DNA from: Arthrobacter sp. Leaf234
GTDB taxonomy: Bacteria; Actinomycetota; Actinomycetes; Actinomycetales; Micrococcaceae
Reading direction: 5' to 3'
NCBI RefSeq assembly: GCF_001422665.1
Contig: NZ_LMLU01000001.1
Span: forward strand, 1,328,732 to 1,392,731
DNA: 64,000 nucleotides
A program made the translations under genes and the position numbers. Under the pieces are notes generated by a model. That model was not told the DNA's origin. It was given only the letters and a program-made list of their open reading frames with translations, and made no database searches. The first letter of the stretch is position 1, and the number at the start of each line of letters is the position of its first letter. Below, piece after piece: positions 1-25,370 of this stretch.

Positions 1-368
1 CCCCAGGCCCCGAGCCAACCCGTCATCGTTTCGATCTCGGGGTCCTGGGCGTTCCTGATCGTGGTCGCCAGCCCGGTGACCTGCGGCTCGAGGCCGTCCT
101 TGGCGAGGATCATCCCGCTCATCTCCACTGCCTGCCGGTGATGCGGGATCATCATCTGCGCGAACAGGACGTCCGCGTCGTTGTGCTCGGTCGAGGCCTC
201 GTCAGGGGCACCCGACGAAGCCCCGGCGCCGGACCCGGCGGTGGGGGCGGCGGAACTCTCCTGGGCCATGTCCATCCCCTCCATGGTTCCGCCGGAGGAG
301 GAACCGCAGGCGGAGAGGGTGATCAGGGCGGTCAGGGACAGGGCTGTAAGGGGGAGTGGACGCTTCAC
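1..368 (-). CDS. DUF305 lipoprotein, C-terminus beyond window
   Basis: About 122 codons are visible and the 3' end lies outside the window. The GTG start at 366-368 follows a GAAGGA ribosome site ten bases upstream. The N-terminus is a lipoprotein signal: basic KR, a hydrophobic stretch, then lipobox LSAC, so the mature protein should be a membrane-anchored extracytoplasmic lipoprotein. A Ser/Ala/Gly-rich linker with Met-Asp runs (MEGMDM) leads into the DUF305 motif HNDADVLFAQMMIPHHRQA. DUF305 proteins are four-helix, ferritin-like domains of unsettled function, often found near copper or multicopper-oxidase genes. The closest neighbour here is the aminotransferase ending 75 bases upstream on the same strand. 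The family call is firm; the function is unknown. Confidence 0.85.
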   Translation of the reverse strand, partial: MKRPLPLTALSLTALITLSACGSSSGGTMEGMDMAQESSAAPTAGSGAGASSGAPDEASTEHNDADVLFAQMMIPHHRQAVEMSGMILAKDGLEPQVTGLATTIRNAQDPEIETMTGWLGAW

Positions 369-1769: not shown

Positions 1770-2570
1770 TCAGGCGGTCTGCAGCGCTGCGCTGCGCACG
1801 CAGGTCGGGACCAGCGCGCGGCAGGGACGTGGACAGGGCGTCGTCGCGCGGGCCGGACCGGGGATGAGCGCGACGGCGTCGTCGTACCGCGCCACCGCGA
1901 GCTCGGCGAGGAGGGGGCTCGGCAGCAGGGGAGCGGTGACGACGTCGGCCTGTGCCCGGGCCAGCTGGTCGTGGAAGTATCCGGGAGCCAGGAGGTAGGA
2001 GGCGAGCGCCACCCGTTCCTGCCCGGCCGATCGGAACGCGGCGACCGCCGCCGGCACGGACGGCGAGGCCTTCGACCCGAAACCGGCGCTCACCGGCCCG
2101 GTCCGGAGGCCGGCGAGGACCGCGAGCACCTCGCCCACGTCCTCCGCCGCGCAGGCATCCGAGGATCCGGCGGCAGCGAGGACCACGGCGGCATCGTCGG
2201 GCACCCCCGCGTCGGCGAGCCGCTCCTGCAGGACCCGGGCCAGGCGAGGGTCCGGGCCCAGCGGCAGGGCGGAGACCGTTCCCGGCCTGCGGGCGGCCGC
2301 CCGCGCGATGTCCACCTTCACGTGGTAGCCGACCGAGAGGAGCAGGGGGACGATGACGGCGGACCGCCCCTCGGGGAGCGCGGCGATGACGTCCACGAGG
2401 TCGGGCTCCTGCACGTCCACATAGGCCTCGACGACGTCGAGGTCCGGTCGGAGGGCGGAGATGCCGGCGCGGACGGCATCGATCTCGCGGCGTCCCTGCG
2501 CGTTGTCCGTCCCGTGCGAGCAGGCGATGAGGACCGGCGGACCGGCGGCGTCGAGGATCATGGGTGACAT
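1770..2570 (-). CDS. sirohydrochlorin chelatase (CbiX/SirB family)
   Basis: 266 aa, two CbiX-like half domains in one chain. The first half starts with LIACSHGTDNAQG, where the His is the metal/tetrapyrrole ligand, and continues to PLLLSVGYHVKVDI with the second His. The second half repeats the fold in degenerate form (VVLAAAGSSD, ASYLLAPGYFHDQLA). The enzyme should insert Fe2+ into sirohydrochlorin to make siroheme, the cofactor of the NirB nitrite reductase encoded next door. It follows nirD by 19 bases on the same strand. The start could also be the internal ATG at 2561, since neither has a strong ribosome site. The last 25 residues are Pro/Arg/Ala-rich and probably disordered. Confidence 0.88.
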   Translation of the reverse strand: MSPMILDAAGPPVLIACSHGTDNAQGRREIDAVRAGISALRPDLDVVEAYVDVQEPDLVDVIAALPEGRSAVIVPLLLSVGYHVKVDIARAAARRPGTVSALPLGPDPRLARVLQERLADAGVPDDAAVVLAAAGSSDACAAEDVGEVLAVLAGLRTGPVSAGFGSKASPSVPAAVAAFRSAGQERVALASYLLAPGYFHDQLARAQADVVTAPLLPSPLLAELAVARYDDAVALIPGPARATTPCPRPCRALVPTCVRSAALQTA

Positions 2571-2589
2571 TCAAGCATCCGGCCCGGCA

Positions 2590-2961
2590 TCACGCAGCGC
2601 GGCCGACCTGGACGACGCCGTCCACGCTCCGGACGGGATAGGTCAGGAGGCCCTCGCCGCCCGAGAGGCAGGCGCCGGTCGCGAGGTCGTACACCTCCTT
2701 GTGCAGCGGAGAGGCGATGGTGGGTGCTGCGCCCCTGGACCCCACGATCCCGCGGGCCATCACCGCCGCGCGGGTCCGGGGGTCGATGTTGCCGACGGCG
2801 TGGAGCCTGTCGCCGGGCAGCCGGAACAGGGCGATCTGCTCGCCGTCCACGAGGGCGGCCTCGCCCCAGCACTCCTCGAGGTCGTCGAGGCGGCACACCG
2901 GACGCCAGGTGGGCTCCGTGGTTCCCGCGTCCACGGCACGCTGCAGGACGAGTTCGGTCAT
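2590..2961 (-). CDS. nirD: nitrite reductase (NADH) small subunit NirD
   Basis: 123 aa. A Rieske-like NirD protein with the PVCRLDDLEE start, QIALFRLP, VGNIDPRTRA, SPLHKEVYDLATGACLSG and a YPVRSVDGVVQV end typical of the small subunit of assimilatory NAD(P)H nitrite reductase. The [2Fe-2S] ligands of true Rieske proteins are absent, as usual for NirD. The start at 2961 was chosen for the AGGAGA ribosome site; the reading frame stays open to 3222 but the extra N-terminus is not NirD-like. It partners NirB, yet it is divergent from nirB rather than downstream of it, and sits in an operon with the siroheme chelatase. Confidence 0.92.
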   Translation of the reverse strand: MTELVLQRAVDAGTTEPTWRPVCRLDDLEECWGEAALVDGEQIALFRLPGDRLHAVGNIDPRTRAAVMARGIVGSRGAAPTIASPLHKEVYDLATGACLSGGEGLLTYPVRSVDGVVQVGRAA

Positions 2962-3114
2962 GTCGGTTCTCCTGTCGGGCAGAGGTCGGGCAGAGGTAGG
3001 GCTGCATCCCACGCTAGGCACCGCGCGTGTCGGGTGCGTCCCGCCGCTGTTGCGCGCGGGTAACTTCGGGCTCACCGCGGTCGGGCTGCCGCGTGAGCCG
3101 GAAGTTAACGTTGC

Positions 3115-3130
3115 GACACATCGGTGACAC
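3115..3130 (+). promoter_or_regulatory. GACAC-N6-GACAC direct repeat in the nirD-nirB intergenic region
   Basis: Two GACAC pentamers spaced by six bases lie between the divergent nirD and nirB genes, about 70 bases before the nirB start, with a possible -10 (TACTGT) at 3152-3157. The 5-6-5 geometry resembles actinobacterial GlnR half-sites (GTNAC-N6-GAAAC), but the bases match only partly. Regulation by nitrogen status is therefore inference from the gene context. Confidence 0.3.
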
Positions 3131-3200
3131 ACGGGAGAAATTGCCCGTTCGTACTGTGGGAGCCAAGGAACGGGACACCAGGTCCGGACGGAAGGCACCC

Positions 3201-5876
3201 ATGAGCGAGACGCGATCACCACGGCCCGCCGGGGACTCCCCGCAAGGAGCGGAGCGCCGCATCGTCGTCGTCGGTGGCGGCCCGGCGGCCCACCGCTTCG
3301 TCGAGGCGCTCTGGCGGCGCGGCACGGACGGACTGCACATCACCGTCCTGACCGAGGAGGAGCACGCGCCCTACGATCGCGTGGCGCTGAGTTCGGCGCT
3401 CACGGGCGACGTCGATCTCACCCTCGGTGAACCCCTCATGTGGCGCGAACCCACCATCCGCCTCGTCACGGGTGAGCGCGCCGTGCGGCTCGACACGGCG
3501 GCACGCTGTGTCATCGGCGCGTCCGGGACGGTCTACGCGTACGACGACGCCGTCCTCGCCACAGGCTCCGATGCCGTGCGGTTGCCGGTGCCCAACGGCG
3601 AGCACGCTGCCGTCTACCGCACGCTCGACGACGTGCAGTGGCTGCGGACTGAGACGGCGAGACTCGCGGAGGACCTCGGGCGGCCGCCGCGCGCCGTCGT
3701 GGTGGGCGGCGGGCTCCTCGGGCTCGAGGCCGCGGGCGGGCTGCAGGTCCTCGGCGCCGACGCCACGGTGGTGAACCGCGCCGGCTGGCTCATGAACGCA
3801 CAGCTCGACCAGGGCGGCGGCCAGGCCCTCGGCCGCCTCATCGCCGCCAAGGGGCTCGGCCTCCACTGCGGCGGGGCTCCGACCTCGATCGACAGGGACG
3901 ACGACGGCCGGGTCACGGCCGTGGGCCTCAGCGACGGGGCGGTGCTCCCCGCGGATCTGGTGGTCTTCGCCGTCGGTATCCGCCCCCGGGACGAGCTGGC
4001 CCGCGATGCGGGCCTGGCCACTGCACCGCGCGGCGGCGTGGTCATCAGCGCCTCCTGCGAGACGTCGGTGCCGGGCGTTTGGGCGATCGGCGAGGTGGCC
4101 AGCTACGGTGGCGTCAGCATGGGGCTGGTGGCGCCGGCGAACGCCATGGCCGAGGTCTGCGCCGACGGGATCCTCGGCGGGGTCTCGAGCTTCGCGGGCT
4201 TCGACACGGCGACCAAGCTCAAACTCTCCGGCGTGGAGGTGGCGAGTTTCGGGGATGCGCTCGCCGACACCGAGGGCAGCCTCGAGATCGTCTACGCAGA
4301 TCCCGCACGCGGGCTCTACCAGAAGCTCGTGGTCACCGACGATGCGAAGACCCTGCTCGGCGGGATCTTCGTGGGCGACGCGGCCCCCTACTCGGCGCTG
4401 CGACCGCTCCTCGGACGCGAACTCCCCGCCGAACCCGGCGCGTACCTCTCCTCCGCGGGCGGCAGCGAGGCGCCGCAGTCCGAGCTGCCGGACGACGTCG
4501 TGCTCTGCTCCTGCAACAACGTGACGGCGGGGGCCTGCCGTTCGGCGGTCCATGGGACGGCGGAGGACGGCTCGGCGGTGGAACCCGCCCTCGACCTGCC
4601 GTCACTCAAGGCCTGCTCGCGGGCGGGGACGCAGTGCGGCTCCTGCGTCCCGATGCTCAAGAAGCTCCTCGACGGTGAACTCACGAAGGCCGGGCGGACG
4701 GTCTCCCGGGGGCTGTGCGAGCACTTCGGGATGTCCCGGCCCGAGCTGTTCGAGGCCATCCAGGCGCTCGACCTCAGCTCCTTCACCGACATCATCCGGC
4801 GTTTCGGCACCACCGACGAGGCGAGGGCCGGTCACGGCTGCGACATCTGCAAGCCGGCCATCGGGTCCATCCTCGCGACCCAGCGTGGCGAGTACGTGCT
4901 CGACGGCGGCCGCGGCACGCTGCAGGACACCAACGACCGGGCGCTGGCGAACATGCAGCGCAACGGCACCTACTCCGTGGTGCCGCGCATCCCGGGAGGT
5001 GAGATCACCCCGCAGAAACTCGCGGTGATCGCGCAGGTCGCGGAGCAGTTCGGCCTGTACGTGAAGCTGACGGGCGCGCTGCGCATCGACCTCTTCGGCG
5101 CGCGGCTCGAGCAGCTGCCGGACATCTGGAAGATCCTCGTCGAGGCCGGGTTCGAGTCCGGCCAGGCGTACGGCAAGGCGCTGCGGAACGTGAAGTCCTG
5201 CGTCGGGTCCACCTGGTGCCGGTTCGGCGTCCAGGACTCGGTGGCCATGGCGATCGACCTCGAACTGCGGTACCGCGGGCTGCGCGCGCCGCACAAGTTC
5301 AAGATGGGCGTCTCGGGGTGCGCCCGAGAATGCGCCGAGGCCCGCAGCAAGGACGTCGGCGTGATCGCTACGGACCAGGGCTGGAACCTCTACGTGGGCG
5401 GCAACGGGGGGTTCCAGCCGGCCCACGCACAGCTCCTCGCCCAGGACCTCGACGGGGAGACCCTGATCCGGTACATCGACCGCTACCTCATGTACTACAT
5501 CCGGACGGCGGACCGGATGCAGCGCACCGCCCGCTGGATGGACGACCTCGACGGTGGTCTCGACCATGTGCGCAGCGTCGTCGTCGAGGATTCCCTCGGT
5601 ATCGGCGAGGACCTGGAGGCGGCCATGGCCCGGCACGTGGAGCACTACGAGGACGAGTGGGCCGCGACGCTCAGGGACCAGGACCGGCTCCGCCGTTTCC
5701 GGTCCTTCGTCAACGCGCCGGACGCCGCGGACCAGTCGATCGTCCTCGTCGAGGAACGCGGCCAGCGACGCCCGGCCACGGAGGCGGAACTCGAGGCCCG
5801 GGCGCGGCGGACCGATCTCGGCTCCGCGATCCCCGTACGCGCCGGGGCCGGCCCCATGCCACGAACGGAAGGCTGA
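3201..5876 (+). CDS. nirB: nitrite reductase (NAD(P)H) large subunit NirB
   Basis: 891 aa. Reduces nitrite to ammonium in the cytoplasm using NAD(P)H. Domain order: FAD/NAD-binding pyridine nucleotide oxidoreductase (RRIVVVGGGPAAHRFVEAL at the N-terminus, second Rossmann motif VVVGGGLLGLEAAGGL), a BFD-type [2Fe-2S] domain with CSC at C436/C438 and the ACSRAGTQCGSC cysteines, then the sulfite/nitrite reductase half with the siroheme-[4Fe-4S] ligands C667-x5-C673 and C707-x3-C711. All key cysteines are present. The start at 3201 follows GGAAGG; the open frame further upstream is not NirB-like. cobA follows after two bases, so enzyme and cofactor synthesis are co-transcribed. Confidence 0.96.
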   Translation: MSETRSPRPAGDSPQGAERRIVVVGGGPAAHRFVEALWRRGTDGLHITVLTEEEHAPYDRVALSSALTGDVDLTLGEPLMWREPTIRLVTGERAVRLDTAARCVIGASGTVYAYDDAVLATGSDAVRLPVPNGEHAAVYRTLDDVQWLRTETARLAEDLGRPPRAVVVGGGLLGLEAAGGLQVLGADATVVNRAGWLMNAQLDQGGGQALGRLIAAKGLGLHCGGAPTSIDRDDDGRVTAVGLSDGAVLPADLVVFAVGIRPRDELARDAGLATAPRGGVVISASCETSVPGVWAIGEVASYGGVSMGLVAPANAMAEVCADGILGGVSSFAGFDTATKLKLSGVEVASFGDALADTEGSLEIVYADPARGLYQKLVVTDDAKTLLGGIFVGDAAPYSALRPLLGRELPAEPGAYLSSAGGSEAPQSELPDDVVLCSCNNVTAGACRSAVHGTAEDGSAVEPALDLPSLKACSRAGTQCGSCVPMLKKLLDGELTKAGRTVSRGLCEHFGMSRPELFEAIQALDLSSFTDIIRRFGTTDEARAGHGCDICKPAIGSILATQRGEYVLDGGRGTLQDTNDRALANMQRNGTYSVVPRIPGGEITPQKLAVIAQVAEQFGLYVKLTGALRIDLFGARLEQLPDIWKILVEAGFESGQAYGKALRNVKSCVGSTWCRFGVQDSVAMAIDLELRYRGLRAPHKFKMGVSGCARECAEARSKDVGVIATDQGWNLYVGGNGGFQPAHAQLLAQDLDGETLIRYIDRYLMYYIRTADRMQRTARWMDDLDGGLDHVRSVVVEDSLGIGEDLEAAMARHVEHYEDEWAATLRDQDRLRRFRSFVNAPDAADQSIVLVEERGQRRPATEAELEARARRTDLGSAIPVRAGAGPMPRTEG

Positions 5877-16595: not shown

Positions 16596-16661
16596 TGCTT
16601 CGGCGCCGACAGACGGATCTTCCCACGTGATGTGCCGTCACGTTGTGTCACGCTGCTCCTC

Positions 16662-16742
16662 GATGTGTGCGATGTGTGCGATGTGTGCGATGTGTGCGAT
16701 GTGTGCGATGTGTGCGATGTGTGCGATGTGTGCGATGGGTGC
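16662..16742 (+). repeat. 9-bp tandem repeat, eight perfect copies plus one variant
   Basis: GATGTGTGC is repeated eight times without error from 16662 to 16733, then once as GATGGGTGC to 16742. The period of nine keeps every frame open. It lies upstream of the disrupted thioesterase gene and outside any supported gene. Perfect copies suggest recent slippage expansion, so copy number may vary between isolates. Confidence 0.92.
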
Positions 16743-17013: not shown

Positions 17014-19965
17014 CTACTTCTTCGCCTTCTGCACCACGACGGTCTGCTTGGTCGTCTCCGTTGCTCCCTTGCTGTTGGTGAGCACTGCGGTGTACACGTA
17101 CTTGCCCGGCGCCCGGTTGGTGATGTCCACGATGGCGTTCTGGGGCTTCGGGGTCGCCCATGCGAGCTTCTGGGTGTGGATCTGCTCGCCGTTCTCGTAC
17201 AGGGTGAAGCTGCTGCCGTTCTCCCCGCTCTTCAGGTCCATGGTGACGGTGTAGTTGCCGTCGTGGGGCCCTTTGTCCTTGCCGTGGTCGATGGACAGTT
17301 TGGCTTTACCAGGCGCCGTGGAGGCGTTGTCCTCGGGCTTCTCCGGTACTGGTCCGTGCCACATGGCGGGTGTCAGGGGGGTCACGGTCAGGCCCTCGAG
17401 GGTTGCTGTGCCGCCGGAGGAGAACAGGCCTATCTGGTTGGCGCCGACGTTGGGGAAGACCTGGTCGGTGATGGTGGTCAGCCCGTCGTTGGCGAAGACT
17501 TCGACGGAGGCCCGGTCGACGTAGACGCGCATGGCGACCTGGCCGTCTTTCAGCGGGACGGGGGCGTCCTCGATGGAGGAGAACGCGGGGTGGAAGCCTT
17601 CGTTGCCGGAATTGGTGCGATCCACGAAGAGCCTGCTGGTCTGTGCGTTGTAGCCGATCTTCGTGGCTTCGGTTCCGTCGCCGAGGACGCTGAGGCCGAA
17701 CGTTTCGGCGTCGCCCGGACTGAAGACGGCATCGATCTGGACGACGTCGCCTGAGACGGGGAGGGTCTCGGCGCCTTCGGCGATGGTCCGGGGTCCGGTG
17801 GTGTAGGCGGCATCGTCCTCGCGCAGGATGTCGATCTGGTCAACGACTTTCTGGACCAGGCGGGGGCCGTCTGCTGTTTCGGTCAGGTTCACTTCGCGGG
17901 GCAGTGACATGGAGCTGCGCCATGTGGTGGTGGGGATGTCATTGGCGTAGTCCCAGTTGCTCATCCAGCCGAGCATGATCCTCTTGTTGTCGGGGACGTT
18001 GCTGAAGGAGACGGCTGCGTAGTAGTCCTTGCCCCAGTCGAGCCAGTCGTAGTCCTCCAGGCGGGATACGGCCGGTTCGTCGGAGAGCATGAATTCGTCG
18101 GCGAGGATGTGGCCCCAGCCGCCGCGGTTGTTGTCGACGACGGTGATGCTGGCTTCTCGTCCCTCGAACTCGCTGACGTTCCAGCTCTTCCAGTCCAGGG
18201 TTTCGCTGTTGTTGCCGGTTGCGGTTCGGACGACTTCTCCGTCTACGACGAGGTTGACGGAGGTTTCATCGCTGCGGGTGAGGGCGGGTTCCTCGCCAAG
18301 GACGACGTGGTCGAAGGTGAGGTGTCCCCATCCTCCGGAGGCATTGTCGACGATTCGCAGGGTTGCTTGCTTGCCGGTGTAGGCGGTGACGTCCCAGTTC
18401 TGCCAGTTGAGCGATCCGGAGTTGTCTCCGGTAGCGGTGTGGACGACCTGGCCGTCGATGACGAGTTCGGCCTGCAGTGTTCCATCGGTACGTCGTCCGC
18501 CGCCGATCAGGAAGCTCAGATTCGTGTTGTCGATGGTGAACTCGGGAGATGTTAGTGTCCCGGAGTTGTTGTCACCGTCAGGTCCGGCTTCAAAGGTGTT
18601 GATGCGGCCGGTGCCGATGAAGTTCTCGCCGCCGGCTGTGGAGGGGTTGCGGGCGGCTTCGAAGTCTCCGTCGATGATCCACCCTTGATCGGTCAGGGTG
18701 CCTTGGGCGTATTCGAAGCCGTTGAAGAGGAGGGTTCCGGGTGCTGGGGTGTTTTCGAGCTGGCCGCCGGGGACGTGGGGGTGGTTGCCGCCGCCGACCA
18801 GGAAGTTGATGTGGTCCTGGCTTCCGACGGTGAAGGTGGGGGATTGGATGGTCCCGACGGGCCAGTCGCCGTCGTTGAAGCCGTTGATCAGCCCTGTCCC
18901 GGTGTGCCCGGAGACCGTGGTCTGGCCAGGAAGCGCGCCGGAAGCGGGGGTATCGGACCAGGGGCCGTTCTTCCAGTTCCCGGGTTCGTTGTTGACCGTC
19001 CAGCCGTTGTACGTTCCGTCGTTGAAACCGGCCAGTGTCGTGCCCTCGGGCACGGAGTCCACGGGTTCGGTCGTGTCCGAGGTGAAGGTGGTGCCGTCGA
19101 AGTCTCCGACGAAGTACTGGCCGCCGCTTCCTCCCGCGACAGCTCCCGGGTTGAGGTTGACGATCATCACCCATTTGATGTTGTTCGGGTCGCCGTCCAC
19201 CGCGATGGGGAAGAGGTCGGGGCATTCCCAGATGCCTGCGGTGGAGTTGGCGGGGCCGAAGTCGCTGAGGTGGGTCCAGTCCTTCAGGTTGTCGCTCTTG
19301 TAGAGGACGACCTTATGGTCGGTTGCCTCGACGGTTGTCATTACCCAGTACGATCCGGCAGGGCCGTCGTAGCGGAACACCTTGGGGTCCCGGAAGTTTG
19401 CCGAACTTCGGTCCAGAACGGGGTTCCCGTCGTACTTTGTCCAGGTCTGTCCCTCATCAATGCTGTAGGCGAGGGACTGGGCCTGCCGGCCGGCGAGGGT
19501 GGGATGCGCACCGGTGTAGGCACTCGTGTAAATCGCGAGTAGGGGCGGGTTCTCTGCGGTGCCGAACCCCGAGGAATTCGTTTCGTCGACGACGATCGAG
19601 CCCGAGAAGATGTCCTCGATCGCTACCCCGTCGGCATTGACAGTCTGCGGGATGGCCAGGGGCTGTTCTTCCCACTGCAGCAGATCCGTGGACGTGGCGT
19701 GCCCCCAGCTCATGTTGCCCCACGTCGTCCCGTAGGGGTTGTGCTGGAAGAACAGGTGGTACTGGCCCTTGTAGTAGACCATGCCGTTCGGGTCGTTCAT
19801 CCAGTTCTTCTCGGGACTGAAGTGGATGAACGGGCGGTACTGCTGGCTGGCAGGATCAATCGGTGCTTCTTCGGCCAGAGCGGGGCCGCTGGCGGCCAGG
19901 AGCGATGCGGCAAGAGCGGCGATCACACCTGCTGTGAGGGTTTGGCTGCGGGTTCCGGACTTCAT
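17014..19965 (-). CDS. secreted GH32 levanase/fructan hydrolase with inserted accessory modules
   Basis: 983 aa. Signal peptide about residues 1-31, cleaved after GPALA. GH32 catalytic residues: nucleophile D58 in NWMNDPNG, transition-state D193 in FRDPK, acid/base E247 in WECPDLF. The propeller is interrupted near residue 305 by about 330 residues of beta-sandwich-like modules and resumes near 635 (DYDWLDWGKDYYAAVSF). A GH32 C-terminal sandwich follows (DRASVEVFANDG, about 840), and the last ~95 residues look like an Ig-like ChiA-N-type domain with no sorting signal. It should release fructose from levan or inulin outside the cell. The promoter region carries a LacI operator; neighbours are a sugar kinase, LacI and a fructose importer. 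Confidence 0.93.
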   Translation of the reverse strand: MKSGTRSQTLTAGVIAALAASLLAASGPALAEEAPIDPASQQYRPFIHFSPEKNWMNDPNGMVYYKGQYHLFFQHNPYGTTWGNMSWGHATSTDLLQWEEQPLAIPQTVNADGVAIEDIFSGSIVVDETNSSGFGTAENPPLLAIYTSAYTGAHPTLAGRQAQSLAYSIDEGQTWTKYDGNPVLDRSSANFRDPKVFRYDGPAGSYWVMTTVEATDHKVVLYKSDNLKDWTHLSDFGPANSTAGIWECPDLFPIAVDGDPNNIKWVMIVNLNPGAVAGGSGGQYFVGDFDGTTFTSDTTEPVDSVPEGTTLAGFNDGTYNGWTVNNEPGNWKNGPWSDTPASGALPGQTTVSGHTGTGLINGFNDGDWPVGTIQSPTFTVGSQDHINFLVGGGNHPHVPGGQLENTPAPGTLLFNGFEYAQGTLTDQGWIIDGDFEAARNPSTAGGENFIGTGRINTFEAGPDGDNNSGTLTSPEFTIDNTNLSFLIGGGRRTDGTLQAELVIDGQVVHTATGDNSGSLNWQNWDVTAYTGKQATLRIVDNASGGWGHLTFDHVVLGEEPALTRSDETSVNLVVDGEVVRTATGNNSETLDWKSWNVSEFEGREASITVVDNNRGGWGHILADEFMLSDEPAVSRLEDYDWLDWGKDYYAAVSFSNVPDNKRIMLGWMSNWDYANDIPTTTWRSSMSLPREVNLTETADGPRLVQKVVDQIDILREDDAAYTTGPRTIAEGAETLPVSGDVVQIDAVFSPGDAETFGLSVLGDGTEATKIGYNAQTSRLFVDRTNSGNEGFHPAFSSIEDAPVPLKDGQVAMRVYVDRASVEVFANDGLTTITDQVFPNVGANQIGLFSSGGTATLEGLTVTPLTPAMWHGPVPEKPEDNASTAPGKAKLSIDHGKDKGPHDGNYTVTMDLKSGENGSSFTLYENGEQIHTQKLAWATPKPQNAIVDITNRAPGKYVYTAVLTNSKGATETTKQTVVVQKAKK

Positions 19966-20168: not shown

Positions 20169-21140
20169 TCAAGGCTGCCGCAGGAGGGCGCCGGGCTCAC
20201 GGCAGGTGGCGGCTGCGATGAGCATTGCTTCCGCCAGCGCGGCTCTCGTCTCGGAGGCTGCCCCGGGCATTCCGTGTCGGACGAGTGTGGACACCATGGA
20301 CGCCAGGGTGGCGTCACCGGCGCCCATGGTGTCGATGATCGGTCCCTCGCCAGGGGCTATGGGTTGGTGGACCGCGGGCTCATTGGCGCGCAGGAGCCAG
20401 GCGCCCAGCGGCCCGGCGGTGGCGAGGATGGTGGGCGCTCCGGCGTCGAGGAGGCGCTGACTGAATGTGTGGAGGTCTTCGGCGGCGAGGAGGGCTGCGT
20501 CGTCGTCGCCGACTTTGCTGAGGAAGCTCCGGGTTGCCATGGCCGTGAAGTTGGCGAGGAAGAGCTCCCTGTTGGCCATCATGCCCGAGCGAGGATTCGG
20601 GTCGATGACAAGGCGGCGCTCGGGCCGGCTGATCAGGGCCGTCAGCGCATCGACTTCCCTCTGGTTGTCGAAGGGGAAGCAGCTGACGGCGATGAACTCT
20701 GCCTGCGCCATGGCCACACGGTGTGCGTCCTGGTAGAGCAGGGTTCGGTGCCTCGCGGCGTGGTTGAAGGCGTAGCGGGGCTCACCGTCGGTGCGATCCG
20801 AGACGGCACGGGAGGTGCCGTAGGGCGCAGGTGTTGCGAGCAGCTCGACACCGTGAAGGTCCAGGAACCCTTTGATACGCCGGCCGTCCTCGTCGTCGCC
20901 GACCATGGCGATGAGTGTTGTCGGTACTCCGAGCAGGGTCAGCCCGACGGCGACATTCAGAGCTGCGCCGCCCACGAAGGACTGCGACCCGCCTGGCTCG
21001 CGTAATTCATCGATCAGCGCGTCGCCGACGACGACCACGCGCGAGGCACCAGGGCCTCCAGGATTTCCAGGGCGTGCGGCGGGTCGATGCTCGGTGCGCG
21101 GTGAGGATTGGGCGACGTCCTTCAGGGCGTGAGTGGTCAT
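20169..21140 (-). CDS. PfkB/ribokinase-family sugar kinase, probable fructokinase
   Basis: 323 aa. N-terminal signature SFVGGAALNVAVGLTLLGV, with the GG hinge and substrate contacts, and C-terminal PfkB motif IDTMGAGDATLASMVS, where the Asp of GAGD is the catalytic base. The start at 21140 has an AAGGA site; the ~30 residue N-terminal tail is Pro/Gly/Arg-rich. It follows lacI by 17 bases on the same strand, so the two form an operon. The context (levanase, fructose ABC importer) suggests fructose as substrate, giving fructose-6-phosphate or fructose-1-phosphate. The regiochemistry cannot be told from sequence. Confidence 0.88.
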   Translation of the reverse strand: MTTHALKDVAQSSPRTEHRPAARPGNPGGPGASRVVVVGDALIDELREPGGSQSFVGGAALNVAVGLTLLGVPTTLIAMVGDDEDGRRIKGFLDLHGVELLATPAPYGTSRAVSDRTDGEPRYAFNHAARHRTLLYQDAHRVAMAQAEFIAVSCFPFDNQREVDALTALISRPERRLVIDPNPRSGMMANRELFLANFTAMATRSFLSKVGDDDAALLAAEDLHTFSQRLLDAGAPTILATAGPLGAWLLRANEPAVHQPIAPGEGPIIDTMGAGDATLASMVSTLVRHGMPGAASETRAALAEAMLIAAATCREPGALLRQP

Positions 21141-21157
21141 GGGTTTTCCTTCTGTTC

Positions 21158-22213
21158 TCAAGGCTGCACGGAGCGGATCTCGCCGCTGCCGCGGACGATC
21201 AGGGTGGTGGGCACGATGCACGTGCGCGCCGGCGTCGCTTCTCCGTCGAGCCGGCCGATGAGGCGCTGAGCAGCTGTCCGTCCGATTTCCTCCGGGTCCT
21301 GGGCGACGACGGTGACACCGGGATCGAGAAGATCGGAGAGCTGGAAGTCGTCGAAGCCGACAAGTGCTGTGCGGCGGTGCGCCTCACGGGATCTCAGTGC
21401 CCGTATAGCGCCGATAGTCACAAGGTTCTGGCTGGTGAACACGGCCGAGGGGGGTGTGGCGGAGTCAAGGAGGGCGAGCATGGCCTGCGCTGCGGATCGC
21501 TCGTCGTGGAGGTTCTCGATGACCGGGATGTCTCCGGTCGGGATTCCCGCGCGGCCGAGAGCGTCGAAGAACCCGGCGCGGCGCTGAGCGGCGGTATAGA
21601 TGTCGCTGCGGTCTCCGAGGTAGGCGATCCGCCGGTGACCGTGATCGAGCAGGTGGTTGGTGGCTGTGGTGGCCCCCGCGCGGTTGTCGCTCATGACGCA
21701 GTCGCCGGTGATCCCGGCGGGCTCCCGGTCCACGAAAACGATCGGGGTGCCGTGACGCATCTCGGATGCGAGATAGGACTGGTCACGGGAAATCGTCGTG
21801 AGGATCAGCCCGTCGACCCGTCGGCGTAGAAACGCCGCTACTGATGACTGCTCCCGTTCGGCATCGTCGTCGAGACTCGAGGCGAACACTGCAATCCCCC
21901 GTTCCAGGGCGAGGTCCTCGATGGCCCTATGCATGGCCCCGGCGAAGGGGTTGTCGACGCTGCTCACCAGAAGGCCGAGAGTCCTGGTCCGCCCGTCTGC
22001 TCGCCTCAGGTTCCCCGCCTGCTCATCAGGGTGGTAGTCCAACGACCGTGCGGCGTCCATCACCTTCGCGATGGTCGCGGCTGAAACGTTCGGTTCCTGA
22101 TTGATGACCCGCGAGACCGTCTTGATCCCTACGCCGGCCAGGGCGGCGACGTGGCGCATCGTGGGGCGCGAACGCGGCGCGTGCGCTGAGCTTTTACCTG
22201 ACATCGATGTCAC
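21158..22213 (-). CDS. LacI-family regulator of the fructan locus
   Basis: About 351 aa. Helix-turn-helix TMRHVAALAGVGIKTVSRVIN with the hinge helix NLRRADGRTRT, then the periplasmic-binding-protein-like effector domain (LGLLVSSVDNPFAGAMHRAIED, PIVFVDREP, AYLGDRSDIYTA, AVFTSQNLVTIGAIRAL, TALVGFDDFQLSDLL). I prefer the GTG at 22213 because GGAG lies eight bases upstream; the ATG at 22204 is too far from any ribosome site. A perfect operator palindrome covers 22199-22212, on its first codons, so autoregulation is likely. It should repress the levanase and frcBCA until fructose or a phosphate derivative binds. Confidence 0.92.
   Translation of the reverse strand: MTSMSGKSSAHAPRSRPTMRHVAALAGVGIKTVSRVINQEPNVSAATIAKVMDAARSLDYHPDEQAGNLRRADGRTRTLGLLVSSVDNPFAGAMHRAIEDLALERGIAVFASSLDDDAEREQSSVAAFLRRRVDGLILTTISRDQSYLASEMRHGTPIVFVDREPAGITGDCVMSDNRAGATTATNHLLDHGHRRIAYLGDRSDIYTAAQRRAGFFDALGRAGIPTGDIPVIENLHDERSAAQAMLALLDSATPPSAVFTSQNLVTIGAIRALRSREAHRRTALVGFDDFQLSDLLDPGVTVVAQDPEEIGRTAAQRLIGRLDGEATPARTCIVPTTLIVRGSGEIRSVQP
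22199..22212. promoter_or_regulatory. LacI operator overlapping the lacI start
   Basis: TGACATCGATGTCA, a perfect palindrome, overlaps the first codons of the lacI gene. It is a sister of the sites at 20004 and 22277, giving the consensus TGACAWCGWTGTCA. A repressor bound here would block its own transcription. Confidence 0.85.
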
Positions 22214-22241
22214 GTTCGAATCTCCATCGTTCCGGAAAGGG

Positions 22242-22271
22242 TTGACTGTGAGCCAGATCATAGTCTATACC
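22242..22271 (+). promoter_or_regulatory. probable frcBCA promoter
   Basis: TTGACT (22242-22247) and TATACC (22266-22271) are spaced by 18 bases, close to the sigma-70-type consensus. The operator at 22277 begins six bases after the -10 and so would cover the transcription start, consistent with repression by LacI. Confidence 0.65.
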
Positions 22272-22276
22272 TGAAA

Positions 22277-22290
22277 TGACATCGTTGTCA
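22277..22290. promoter_or_regulatory. LacI operator upstream of frcB
   Basis: TGACATCGTTGTCA differs from a perfect palindrome at one central position and matches the other two fructan-locus operators. It lies 36 bases before the frcB start, directly after the -10 box. Confidence 0.85.
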
Positions 22291-22326
22291 GGGAGGATGC
22301 CTCCCGCCACCAAAGGAGATTCAAGG

Positions 22327-23442
22327 ATGAATCGCATGACATCCCATCCGTCCCACTCGACCCGCCGGCGTCTGATGACAGCGGGTTCCGTCGTGACCCT
22401 GTCGCTCCTGGCTCTGACGGCCTGCGGGGGAGGAGACGCGTCGTCCTCGTCGGGCGACAGTGCTGGCTCCGGTGACGGTCCGATCGGTGTCTCACTGATC
22501 GTCAAGACCACCACGAACCCCTTCTTCGTCGCGATGCAGGAAGGCGCCCAGGCAGCAGCCGAAAGCGAAGGAGTCGAGCTGACCCTCGCTGCCGGCGAGG
22601 AAGACGGCGACGAAGACACCCAGATCCAGGCCATTGAGAACGCCATCTCCAAGGGCGACGCCGGCATCCTCATCACGCCCAACGGCCCGGCCGTCGAGGA
22701 TGCGCTCACAAAGGCCCGCGACGCCGGCCTGTTCGTCATCGCGCTCGACACCCCACCGTCGGATCCTGAAGCCGCAGACATCACCTTCGCAACCGACAAT
22801 TTCGTCGCCGGGCAGGAGATCGGCAAGTGGGCTGCTTCGAAACTTGCCGGTGAGAAGGCGACCATCGCCATGATCGACCTGTTCGACGACAAGATCGTCT
22901 CGGTCGACTACAACCGTGACCAGGGTTTCCTGGATGGGATGGGTATCGACACGGCCGATGCCGAGACGAACGGGGACGAAGAGAAGACCGGTTCCTACAG
23001 CGGCGGCGACTACGAGATTGTCGGCAACGAAGCTTCCCAGGGCGCCGAGGACGGCGGCCGTACTGCAGCTGAAACCCTTCTGAGCGCCAACCCCGACATC
23101 AACGTCGTCTACACGATCAACGAACCGGCCGCCTACGGCGCCTACGAGGCCTTCAAGGCCGCCGGCAAGGACGACGTGATCGTCGTGTCCATCGATGGGG
23201 GGTGCGCCGGCGTAGGTCAGGTCGATGAGGGAATCATCGACGCGACCAGCCAGCAGTATCCCGTGAAAATGGCTGAGCTCGGAGTCCAGGCGATCGCTGA
23301 CCTGGTCGAGACGGGTGAGGCTCCCGAGCCTACCGACGGCAAGGACTTCTTCGACACCGGCGTAGCGCTGGTCACCAACGAGCCGCAGGATGGCCTCGAG
23401 TCCATCGATGCCGCTGCCGCCAGCGACATCTGCTGGGGATAA
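22327..23442 (+). CDS. frcB: fructose-type ABC transporter substrate-binding lipoprotein
   Basis: 371 aa. Lipoprotein signal with RRR, a hydrophobic core and lipobox LTAC, then a Ser/Gly/Asp-rich linker. The mature part is a ribose-type (type I) sugar-binding protein: VKTTTNPFFVAMQEGAQAA, GILITPNGPAVEDALTKA, ALDTPPSDPEAADITFATDN, VVYTINEPAAYGAYEAFKA, SIDGGCAGVGQ and TSQQYPVKMAELG. The last motifs strongly recall FrcB of rhizobial fructose importers. It captures the sugar outside the membrane and delivers it to FrcC. The start was chosen for the AAGGAG site. The promoter and LacI operator sit immediately upstream; a hairpin separates it from frcC. Confidence 0.92.
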   Translation: MNRMTSHPSHSTRRRLMTAGSVVTLSLLALTACGGGDASSSSGDSAGSGDGPIGVSLIVKTTTNPFFVAMQEGAQAAAESEGVELTLAAGEEDGDEDTQIQAIENAISKGDAGILITPNGPAVEDALTKARDAGLFVIALDTPPSDPEAADITFATDNFVAGQEIGKWAASKLAGEKATIAMIDLFDDKIVSVDYNRDQGFLDGMGIDTADAETNGDEEKTGSYSGGDYEIVGNEASQGAEDGGRTAAETLLSANPDINVVYTINEPAAYGAYEAFKAAGKDDVIVVSIDGGCAGVGQVDEGIIDATSQQYPVKMAELGVQAIADLVETGEAPEPTDGKDFFDTGVALVTNEPQDGLESIDAAAASDICWG

Positions 23443-23455
23443 GACACCCCTCGAC

Positions 23456-23498
23456 ATAGTCGGTCCGCGGGTCGACACTTTCCCCGCGGACCGACTAT
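23456..23498 (+). other. intercistronic hairpin between frcB and frcC
   Basis: A 16-bp stem (ATAGTCGGTCCGCGGG and its exact complement) with an 11-base loop lies 14 bases after the frcB stop. No T tract follows and the operon continues. It may stabilise the frcB message or cause partial termination, so that binding protein is made in excess of permease. Confidence 0.75.
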
Positions 23499-23523
23499 CA
23501 GCACCGACCAACGGAGTTCTTCC

Positions 23524-24567
23524 ATGAACCAGACAGTGAAAGCGGCTCCTTCAGCGGGCAGCCACGATCTTGCCGGCGAGTTCCTCGACCGCACAACACC
23601 ACTTACCCGAGTCCGCAACACCCTCCACCGCTACCCTGCCCTCAGCCCCGCCATCGTGCTGGTCATCGCCATCATAGTGTTCGGGCTCCTCAACGAACGC
23701 TTCCTCGCTCCGGCTAACCTCTCACTGATCACCCAGCAGGTCGCAGTCGTCGGCACCCTCGCCATCGCGCAGACGCTCATCATCCTGACCGCCGGCATCG
23801 ATCTCTCCGTCGGGGCAGTCATGGTCCTCACCTCCATGGTGATCGCCCAGACCAGCTCACAGAACGGCATCCCCGGGTTCGTCGCACTGATCCTGGGACT
23901 CGTCGTAGGCCTCGCCGCCGGCGCATTCAACGCCTTCCTGGTCACCAAGTTCAGATTGCCCCCGTTCATCGTCACCCTCGGCACGTTGAACATCTTCATC
24001 GCCCTGACCTTGCTGTACTCGGCAGGCGCCACCGTCCGCGGAGCCGAGATGCCCGGCGTGCTCACCGCCACCGGCACGACCTTCAGCCTCGCAGGCGTGA
24101 ACATCACCAACGGCGTCGTTCTCATGCTCCTGCTCTACGTCGCCGTCGCCTTCATCCTCGGCAAGACCGCCTGGGGCCGCCACGTCTACGCCGTCGGCGA
24201 CGACAAGGAAGCTGCGCGCCTTGCAGGCATCAGCGTCAACCGCGTCCTGGTCAGCGTCTACCTCGCCGCAGGCGCCATCCTCGCCGTCGGCGCCTGGATC
24301 CAGATCGGCCGCAGCAACGCGGCGTCCCCCAACGCCGGCGCCGACCTGAACCTGGACTCCATCACCGCCGTCGTCATCGGCGGAACAAGCCTCTTCGGTG
24401 GCCGCGGCACCATCTGGGGCACCCTCCTCGGGGCGCTGATCGTCGGCGTCTTCCGCAACGGCCTCTCCCTCGCCGGACTGGACGTCCTGTGGCAGACCTT
24501 CGCCGTGGGTGTCCTGATCATCATCGCCGTCTCCGTCGACCAGTGGATCCGAAAGGTACGCAAGTGA
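23524..24567 (+). CDS. frcC: fructose-type ABC transporter permease
   Basis: 347 aa, RbsC/AraH-type permease with about ten hydrophobic segments. Family motifs are ITQQVAVVGTLAIAQTLIILTAGIDLSVGA near the N-terminus (the TAGIDLSVG signature), GRHVYAVGDDKEAARLAGISV (the coupling loop contacting the ATPase) and AVVIGGTSLFGGRGTIWGTLLGALI near the C-terminus. A single permease gene is present, so it should form a homodimer. Its stop overlaps the frcA start by four bases (GTGA), which implies translational coupling. Confidence 0.93.
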   Translation: MNQTVKAAPSAGSHDLAGEFLDRTTPLTRVRNTLHRYPALSPAIVLVIAIIVFGLLNERFLAPANLSLITQQVAVVGTLAIAQTLIILTAGIDLSVGAVMVLTSMVIAQTSSQNGIPGFVALILGLVVGLAAGAFNAFLVTKFRLPPFIVTLGTLNIFIALTLLYSAGATVRGAEMPGVLTATGTTFSLAGVNITNGVVLMLLLYVAVAFILGKTAWGRHVYAVGDDKEAARLAGISVNRVLVSVYLAAGAILAVGAWIQIGRSNAASPNAGADLNLDSITAVVIGGTSLFGGRGTIWGTLLGALIVGVFRNGLSLAGLDVLWQTFAVGVLIIIAVSVDQWIRKVRK

Positions 24568-25370
24568 CCGACACAGCAAGCACGACCCTCCCAGCACCGG
24601 GCAACGATCCTAACCGCCGGCCCATCCTGGAAGCCCGCAACCTGGTCAAGACCTTCGGCAAGGTCGTCGGCCTCGATGGAGTGTCCCTGTCCCTCTACCC
24701 GGGAGAAGTCCTGGCGATCATCGGGGACAACGGCGCCGGTAAATCGACCCTGATCAAATGCCTGACCGGAGCCGAAGTCCCTGACCAGGGCGAACTGCTC
24801 CTCGAAGGACAGCCCGTCCACTTCAAACGGCCCCAGGACGCGCGGCAAGCCGGCATCGAGACCGTGTACCAGAATCTCGCCGTCTCACCAGCACTCGACG
24901 TCGCCGCGAACCTCTTCCTCGGACGCGAAGAACGCCGCAAAGGGATCCTCGGTTCCGTGTTCCGCATGGTCGACACCAAAGGCATGCGCCAGAAAGCCCG
25001 GGCTGAACTCACCGAGCTCGGCATCAGTACGCTTCAGGATGTCACCGTGCCGGTCGAAAACCTCTCCGGCGGCCAACGCCAAGCCGTCGCCGTCGCCCGC
25101 GCAGCGGCCTTCGGATCCAAGGTCGTCGTCCTCGACGAACCCACCGCGGCCCTCGGCGTCCGGGAATCGAAGCAGGTCCTCGAACTGGTCAAAAACCTTC
25201 GGACCCGGGGAATTCCGGTCATCCTCATCAGCCACAACATGCCGCACGTCTTCGAGGTAGCTGACCGCATCCACATCCAGCGCCTCGGAAAGTGCGCCAC
25301 GACCATCACCCCGCAAAGCCACACCATGACCGAAGCGGTGGCGATCATGACCGGAGCGCAGACAGCATGA
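24564..25370 (+). CDS. frcA: sugar ABC transporter ATP-binding protein, single domain
   Basis: 268 aa. Walker A GDNGAGKST, Q-loop region VYQNLAVSPALDV, signature LSGGQRQ, Walker B VVVLDEPTAALG and the switch His in LISHNMPHV are all present. It carries one nucleotide-binding domain, unlike the double-domain RbsA/AraG proteins, and matches FrcA-type fructose ATPases that act as homodimers. The GTG start inside the frcC stop region gives a normal N-terminus (about 30 polar residues before EARNLVKTFG). It overlaps the next gene by four bases. Confidence 0.93.
   Translation: MTDTASTTLPAPGNDPNRRPILEARNLVKTFGKVVGLDGVSLSLYPGEVLAIIGDNGAGKSTLIKCLTGAEVPDQGELLLEGQPVHFKRPQDARQAGIETVYQNLAVSPALDVAANLFLGREERRKGILGSVFRMVDTKGMRQKARAELTELGISTLQDVTVPVENLSGGQRQAVAVARAAAFGSKVVVLDEPTAALGVRESKQVLELVKNLRTRGIPVILISHNMPHVFEVADRIHIQRLGKCATTITPQSHTMTEAVAIMTGAQTA

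Follow-up and report, generated by a model that had tools for sequence, protein, structure and literature searches.

Within the window, the whole stretch of 64,000 nucleotides of Arthrobacter sp. Leaf234 DNA that was analysed, one gene encodes a GH32 enzyme whose catalytic domain contains a long insert. The locus raises the question of how this insert is built, in particular whether one module lies inside another of its own kind, and what such an arrangement could do for the enzyme. The ORF is the single match of its kind in the window's genome, and the N-terminus of its product looks like a signal peptide when read by eye. The parts of the gene are given below; the borders of the two outer half-modules and of the inner module were set by hand.

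17014..19965, minus strand: GH32 enzyme gene with the nested insert, an intact ORF of 983 aa
19066..19842, minus strand: GH32 propeller, part 1 (aa 42-300), with the WMNDPNG, RDP and EC motifs
18058..19065, minus strand: whole insert, between two propeller strands (aa 301-636)
18766..19050, minus strand: N-terminal half of the outer module, A1 (aa 306-400)
18277..18744, minus strand: complete inner module, B1+B2 (aa 408-563)
18070..18276, minus strand: C-terminal half of the outer module, A2 (aa 564-632)
17791..18057, minus strand: GH32 propeller, resumed (aa 637-725)
17371..17784, minus strand: GH32 C-terminal domain (aa 728-865)
17017..17358, minus strand: C-terminal extension (aa 870-983), with no accepted Pfam family

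Pfam searches matched GH32N with an E value of 1e-91 (best stretch aa 48-300, covering 239 of 307 profile positions, with a second GH32N stretch also counted) and GH32C at aa 728-862 (E 5e-36), and the C-terminal extension gave only a sub-threshold match to ChitinaseA_N. The motifs WMNDPNG (from aa 55), RDP (from aa 192) and EC (from aa 247) are taken to be the GH32 catalytic motifs, with D58, D193 and E247 in the corresponding roles. No Pfam family matched within the insert up to E 10, so that annotation misses one third of the protein (about 330 aa), for which a substrate-binding role is likely. When the protein was compared by phmmer with the exo-inulinase InuAMN8 (8i12), which shares the catalytic fold but lacks the insert, aa 26-299 and 633-859 aligned to residues 26-285 and 294-518 of the chain, and about 333 aa of the levanase stood at a site where 8i12 has about 8. 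The preliminary description had placed the interruption of the propeller at about residues 305 to 635, and both Pfam and phmmer agree with it (insert at about aa 301-636). An AlphaFold2 model of aa 38-880 (843 aa, 81 sequences) had a mean pLDDT of 90.8 and a pTM of 0.84. In this predicted model the GH32 fold, a propeller followed by a beta-sandwich, was recovered, and 485 of the 489 residues of 8i12 superposed at 1.6 A (Z 53, 58% identity), indicating that the catalytic domain closes around the insert.

Four half-modules, arranged A1-B1-B2-A2, make up the insert. Within the window protein itself, A1 aligned to B1 with a score of 85, against a best score of 76 in 1000 shuffles, and B2 aligned to A2 with a score of 199, against a best of 52, whereas the scores of the remaining four pairings were matched by 85, 135, 778 and 469 of 1000 shuffles. 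Profiles built from 28 diverse relatives gave the same pairing in hhalign (A1-B1, 99.6% probability, E 6e-24, 37% identity; B2-A2, 99.95% probability, E 5e-38, 45% identity), and the other four pairs had a probability below 1% each. Because both pairs exceeded all 1000 shuffles and the profiles paired in the same way, the reading A1-[B1-B2]-A2 is no chance impression. The module coordinates proposed earlier from the letters alone agree with ours to within about ten residues.

The insert was also modelled on its own (327 aa, 28 sequences; mean pLDDT 93.2, pTM 0.86). Comparison of this model with solved structures gave 942 matches with Z of at least 2, of which the 50 listed were tallied by hand, using the first and last superposed residue only as the range of each match. 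In 32 of these 50 listed matches, one small domain superposed on a range that starts and ends within a few residues of the two ends of the insert; the 137-aa carbohydrate-binding module (CBM) 8xmz_A, for example, aligned over 128 residues at 2.8 A (Z 12.1) with the range 1..325. In 11 others, one domain superposed on the middle of the insert, at about 97-261 (8a28_A: 134 aligned, 3.2 A, range 104..255). Four more covered mostly the middle together with stray end residues, three were multi-domain matches with rmsd above 14 A, and no low-rmsd tandem or crossed split was found among the 50 listed. Since a compact domain of about 130 residues spans 1..325 at about 3 A, both ends of the insert fold together, and the predicted structure thus has one complete domain enclosed by the two parts of a second. 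We looked for the outcome that would have spoken against the preliminary description, namely a model with two ordinary modules in tandem, and did not find it; in the prediction the outer domain is discontinuous and the inner one continuous. The half-module pairing, the insert model and the closure of GH32 together uphold the claim, made in that description, of a module inside its own paralogue inside the catalytic domain.

CBMs were among the listed fold matches of the insert, with the porphyran-binding 8xmz at the top and CBM61, CBM16 and CBM36 further down. These are beta-sandwiches like the insert modules (Z about 9-12, about 9-17% identity), but each is a single uninterrupted domain. Meprin/MAM, reelin and insecticidal-toxin domains were also among the best matches, so that the comparison supports a common fold and not any particular ligand. 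A plain Foldseek search was set aside, as it was led by multi-domain matches with query TM-scores of at most 0.3. The insert profile gave seven rows against PDB sequences up to E 10, all of which we took as chance: two lectin-like alpha-amylase inhibitors (E 0.0008 and 0.002), a phage virion protein (0.24) and four EH-domain chains (0.42-0.45).

On the propeller, the insert comes after the YFVGDFDG strand (aa 284 on) and stops shortly before the DWGKDYYAA strand (aa 643 on). In the model, the motifs of D58, D193 and E247 lie at or just before the starts of strands, which, from GH32 structures, we assume to be the first strands of their blades; the strand that follows the insert is presumably of the same kind. 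This shared strand kind would put the insert on the face of the propeller that bears the active site, with the pair of modules by the active-site mouth.

From a scan of named genomes, the best 80 of 585 relatives were kept for comparison; they came from Arthrobacter, Microbacterium, Agromyces, Cryobacterium, Streptomyces, Tessaracoccus, Neobacillus, Janthinobacterium and others. Within the window's family, 44 of 395 sampled genomes had a match to the insert, five of them in the same genus including the window's own, and the insert profile matched in 22 of 219 genomes of another family of the same order and in 4 of 396 of the window's phylum (starting genome counted). The corresponding numbers were 17 of 398 genomes in the class of Neobacillus, most of these not nested, and 2 of 369 in the class of Janthinobacterium (starting genome counted). 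The distribution of the module is patchy. All 111 module-bearing ORFs in loci L003-L111 had the order GHn-N-N-C-C-GHb-GHc (N and C denoting the half-modules); these 109 loci partly overlap and were chosen by likeness to the query, so that the count shows conservation and not frequency. Deeper nests (NNNCCC) were not seen by eye in the half-module patterns, in which the half profiles miss halves of divergent proteins. The full GHn-N-N-C-C-GHb-GHc order was also present in a 943-aa GH32 of Actinomyces oris (WP_271289540.1), which we take to be probably a levanase of the LevJ kind; its modules are divergent, and the outer one stands apart in the tree (end branch 0.93). In two Arthrobacter loci, a second nested GH32 gene, about 47% identical, lies close behind the first (L047:9707-12460 and L089:8953-11652), and frame-broken or partial copies of the nested levanase were seen in Arthrobacter sp. 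StoSoilB13 (L119) and in genome G387 (L170).

The module also occurs in other arrangements. Two GH32s of Catenovulum adriaticum (L117) carry a module of the same family at the same insertion site, but singly and un-nested, which bears out the earlier remark that some GH32 enzymes have one insert. At the same locus, a Catenovulum 'hypothetical protein' (L117:15145-17184) has three tandem modules and follows SusC/SusD-type genes; it may be a surface fructan-binding protein. A free NNCC unit was found at the C-terminus of two divergent GH32s, in which the propeller insert is absent:

L168 (genome G216), 2545-5064, minus strand: GH32 ORF with the free NNCC unit
L223, 202-2682: GH32 ORF with the free NNCC unit

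Three more divergent GH32s (L178, L210 and L212) have a single module at the end. In the class of Neobacillus, ten ORFs (1493-2097 aa) that we take to be CFTase-like from their size and layout carry tandem modules ahead of GH32 and, behind it, one C half or more. The GH32 of L157 (1522-5172, minus strand) has about 490 extra residues at a different propeller site, comprising one module and a stretch that resembles DUF6250/GH43_C2. By Pfam and PDB search, a GH81-like (beta-1,3-glucanase-like) protein in L214 (685-6093, minus strand) has a single module in its N-terminal part; compared with the GH81 structure 6fop, query residues 138-338 stood against a much shorter chain segment (72-108), and the first flank scored only 6.7 bits. 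Large ORFs with one module each were also seen in L213 and L215-L218. Because single, tandem, nested-inserted and nested-free forms coexist in one module family, the steps between them can be compared directly. We tentatively suggest, as a possibility that we would not put at even odds, that this CBM-fold family is a self-nesting plug-in, in which the termini and one hairpin turn would make insert and socket, that entered GH32 (at two propeller sites), GH81 and its own paralogue, and that the nested pair travels as a rigid two-site binding unit.

The CBM38 of the Paenibacillus macerans CFTase may bear on the ligand of the modules. CBM38 is reported to comprise aa 32-389 of this enzyme, to have two predicted beta-sandwiches and to bind levan and inulin (PMC10076258). 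Its modules are in tandem before GH32, whereas in the window enzyme one module encloses the other and GH32 encloses both. Homologous modules were seen in a similarly placed region (about aa 63-403 in L151) of the CFTase-like proteins, a class assigned by layout: hhalign of the insert modules gave 95.9-97.4% against the first- and second-detected modules (10 and 7 proteins) and 98.3-98.7% against the third-detected modules (2 proteins). The occurrence of the same module type in the GH81-like protein means that fructan is not the sole possible ligand. In addition, the inner modules of the window enzyme and several near relatives have GGGRRTDG or alike, and outer modules and Streptomyces inner modules have a GGGxHP-like motif. 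With GGGxHP absent from the inner module of the window's group, the copies may recognise different ligands, or one of them may be inert. The window enzyme is predicted to hydrolyse levan or inulin. We consider it probable that it is a secreted GH32 fructan hydrolase of exo-levanase type with two paralogous, doubly nested CBM-fold beta-sandwich modules that serve in fructan anchoring. In this reading the outer module separates two blades of the propeller, and the inner one occupies the turn that joins two strands of the outer. Both would bind fructan and hold the enzyme on the polymer; the most likely role of the insert is to keep a fructose-scavenging levanase attached to fructan next to its active site.

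Other readings of the insert were weighed against this one. Tandem modules of the same family do occur in other proteins, and the insert could in principle be two ordinary modules in a row, with the split merely apparent. Such a reading is highly improbable and was rejected, since A1 resembles only B1 and A2 only B2, the ORFs tallied among relatives read NNCC without exception and never NCNC, and in nearly two-thirds of the listed structural superpositions one small domain covers the whole insert. It is also conceivable that the insert binds no sugar and is a structural spacer, or controls oligomerisation or substrate access. The loss of GGGxHP from the inner module of the window enzyme and several near relatives, and a fold that is common to non-CBM domains, would suit this explanation; we nevertheless regard it as unlikely, because the top fold match and several others are CBMs, the modules are homologous to those of proteins that resemble the fructan-binding CFTase (a likeness judged by layout), and the three tandem modules of Catenovulum adjoin SusC/SusD-type genes.

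The history of the nesting was addressed with trees of 104 of 271 modules (80% identity filter), or of 98 of those, built by quick searches from concatenated halves. In the midpoint-rooted 104-module tree, one group (SH-aLRT 88) took in both free outer modules and 33 of the 35 inserted ones, the free units of L168 and L223 had their outer modules with the outer and their inner modules among inner-like ones, and 48 of 101 inner forks had support below 80. The two Catenovulum single inserts fell outside the large clade in which nearly all outer and inner modules are found. These data are compatible with a single nesting, in which a second module would have gone into one that was already singly inserted, an event that probably took place once, with later spread of the pair as a unit. 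Nesting more than once, for example separately in the Janthinobacterium lineage, is an alternative to which we give a low probability. It draws on the outer modules of Actinomyces and Janthinobacterium, which fell outside the outer clade in the free tree, and on the outer and inner modules of the Janthinobacterium locus L099, which fell outside the main groups. Likewise, one clade of all inner modules was rejected in the first test (p 0.0009), and these stray modules, the weak forks and the initial rejection together leave room for more than one event. Against it, a tree with all 37 outer modules as one clade was not rejected, and its likelihood was higher (AU p 0.81; 0.91 for 36 modules without Janthinobacterium), and the inner clade was no longer rejected after six rows chosen after the first result had been dropped (p 0.18, 34 rows; 0.175 without L099 also, 33 rows). 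The six rows were L119_3014, which is the inner module of a frame-broken gene mislabelled as single in the first test, three oddly composed L117_15145 rows, and the long branches L179 and L219. Formally, NC could also have become NNCC if the N half and the C half had each been duplicated on its own, giving a nested fold with mixed ancestry of the halves. We think this improbable: the two duplications would have had to match, the concatenated tree brings most outer modules together, and both free inner modules join three complete single modules there (support 91).

Taking up a domain within its own paralogue, itself lodged in a third domain, is an unusual way for a protein to gain parts while keeping its fold. 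The arrangement is common in relatives and also present outside the catalytic domain. A domain caller that takes each stretch as a domain of its own would halve the outer module. In the open-access literature searched, judged by titles and the starts of abstracts, no nested module in GH32 was described; GH32, the CBM-fold module and insertion are each known, and self-nesting with a free unit was not found described there.

A kinase, a regulator and an importer are encoded beside the levanase:

20169..22261, minus strand: PfkB-type sugar kinase and LacI-type regulator, adjoining the levanase
22276..25370, plus strand: sugar ABC importer, with binding protein, permease and ATPase

Among the flanks of the 80 relatives, some of which are shortened by contig ends, 60 had a LacI-like match (a few only about 30% identical), and binding-protein-, permease- and ATPase-like matches were present in 57, 55 and 55, respectively. 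The PfkB kinase lay close to the levanase in no more than 4 of the 80; for two unrelated genes of the window that served as a control, the numbers were 1 and 0. This setting suits a secreted enzyme that supplies fructose for import, and the adjoining ABC importer would take up the fructose released by the anchored enzyme. On the 3' side of the levanase gene, a 9-bp tandem repeat (CGATGTGTG) is present in nine copies at window positions 16661-16742.
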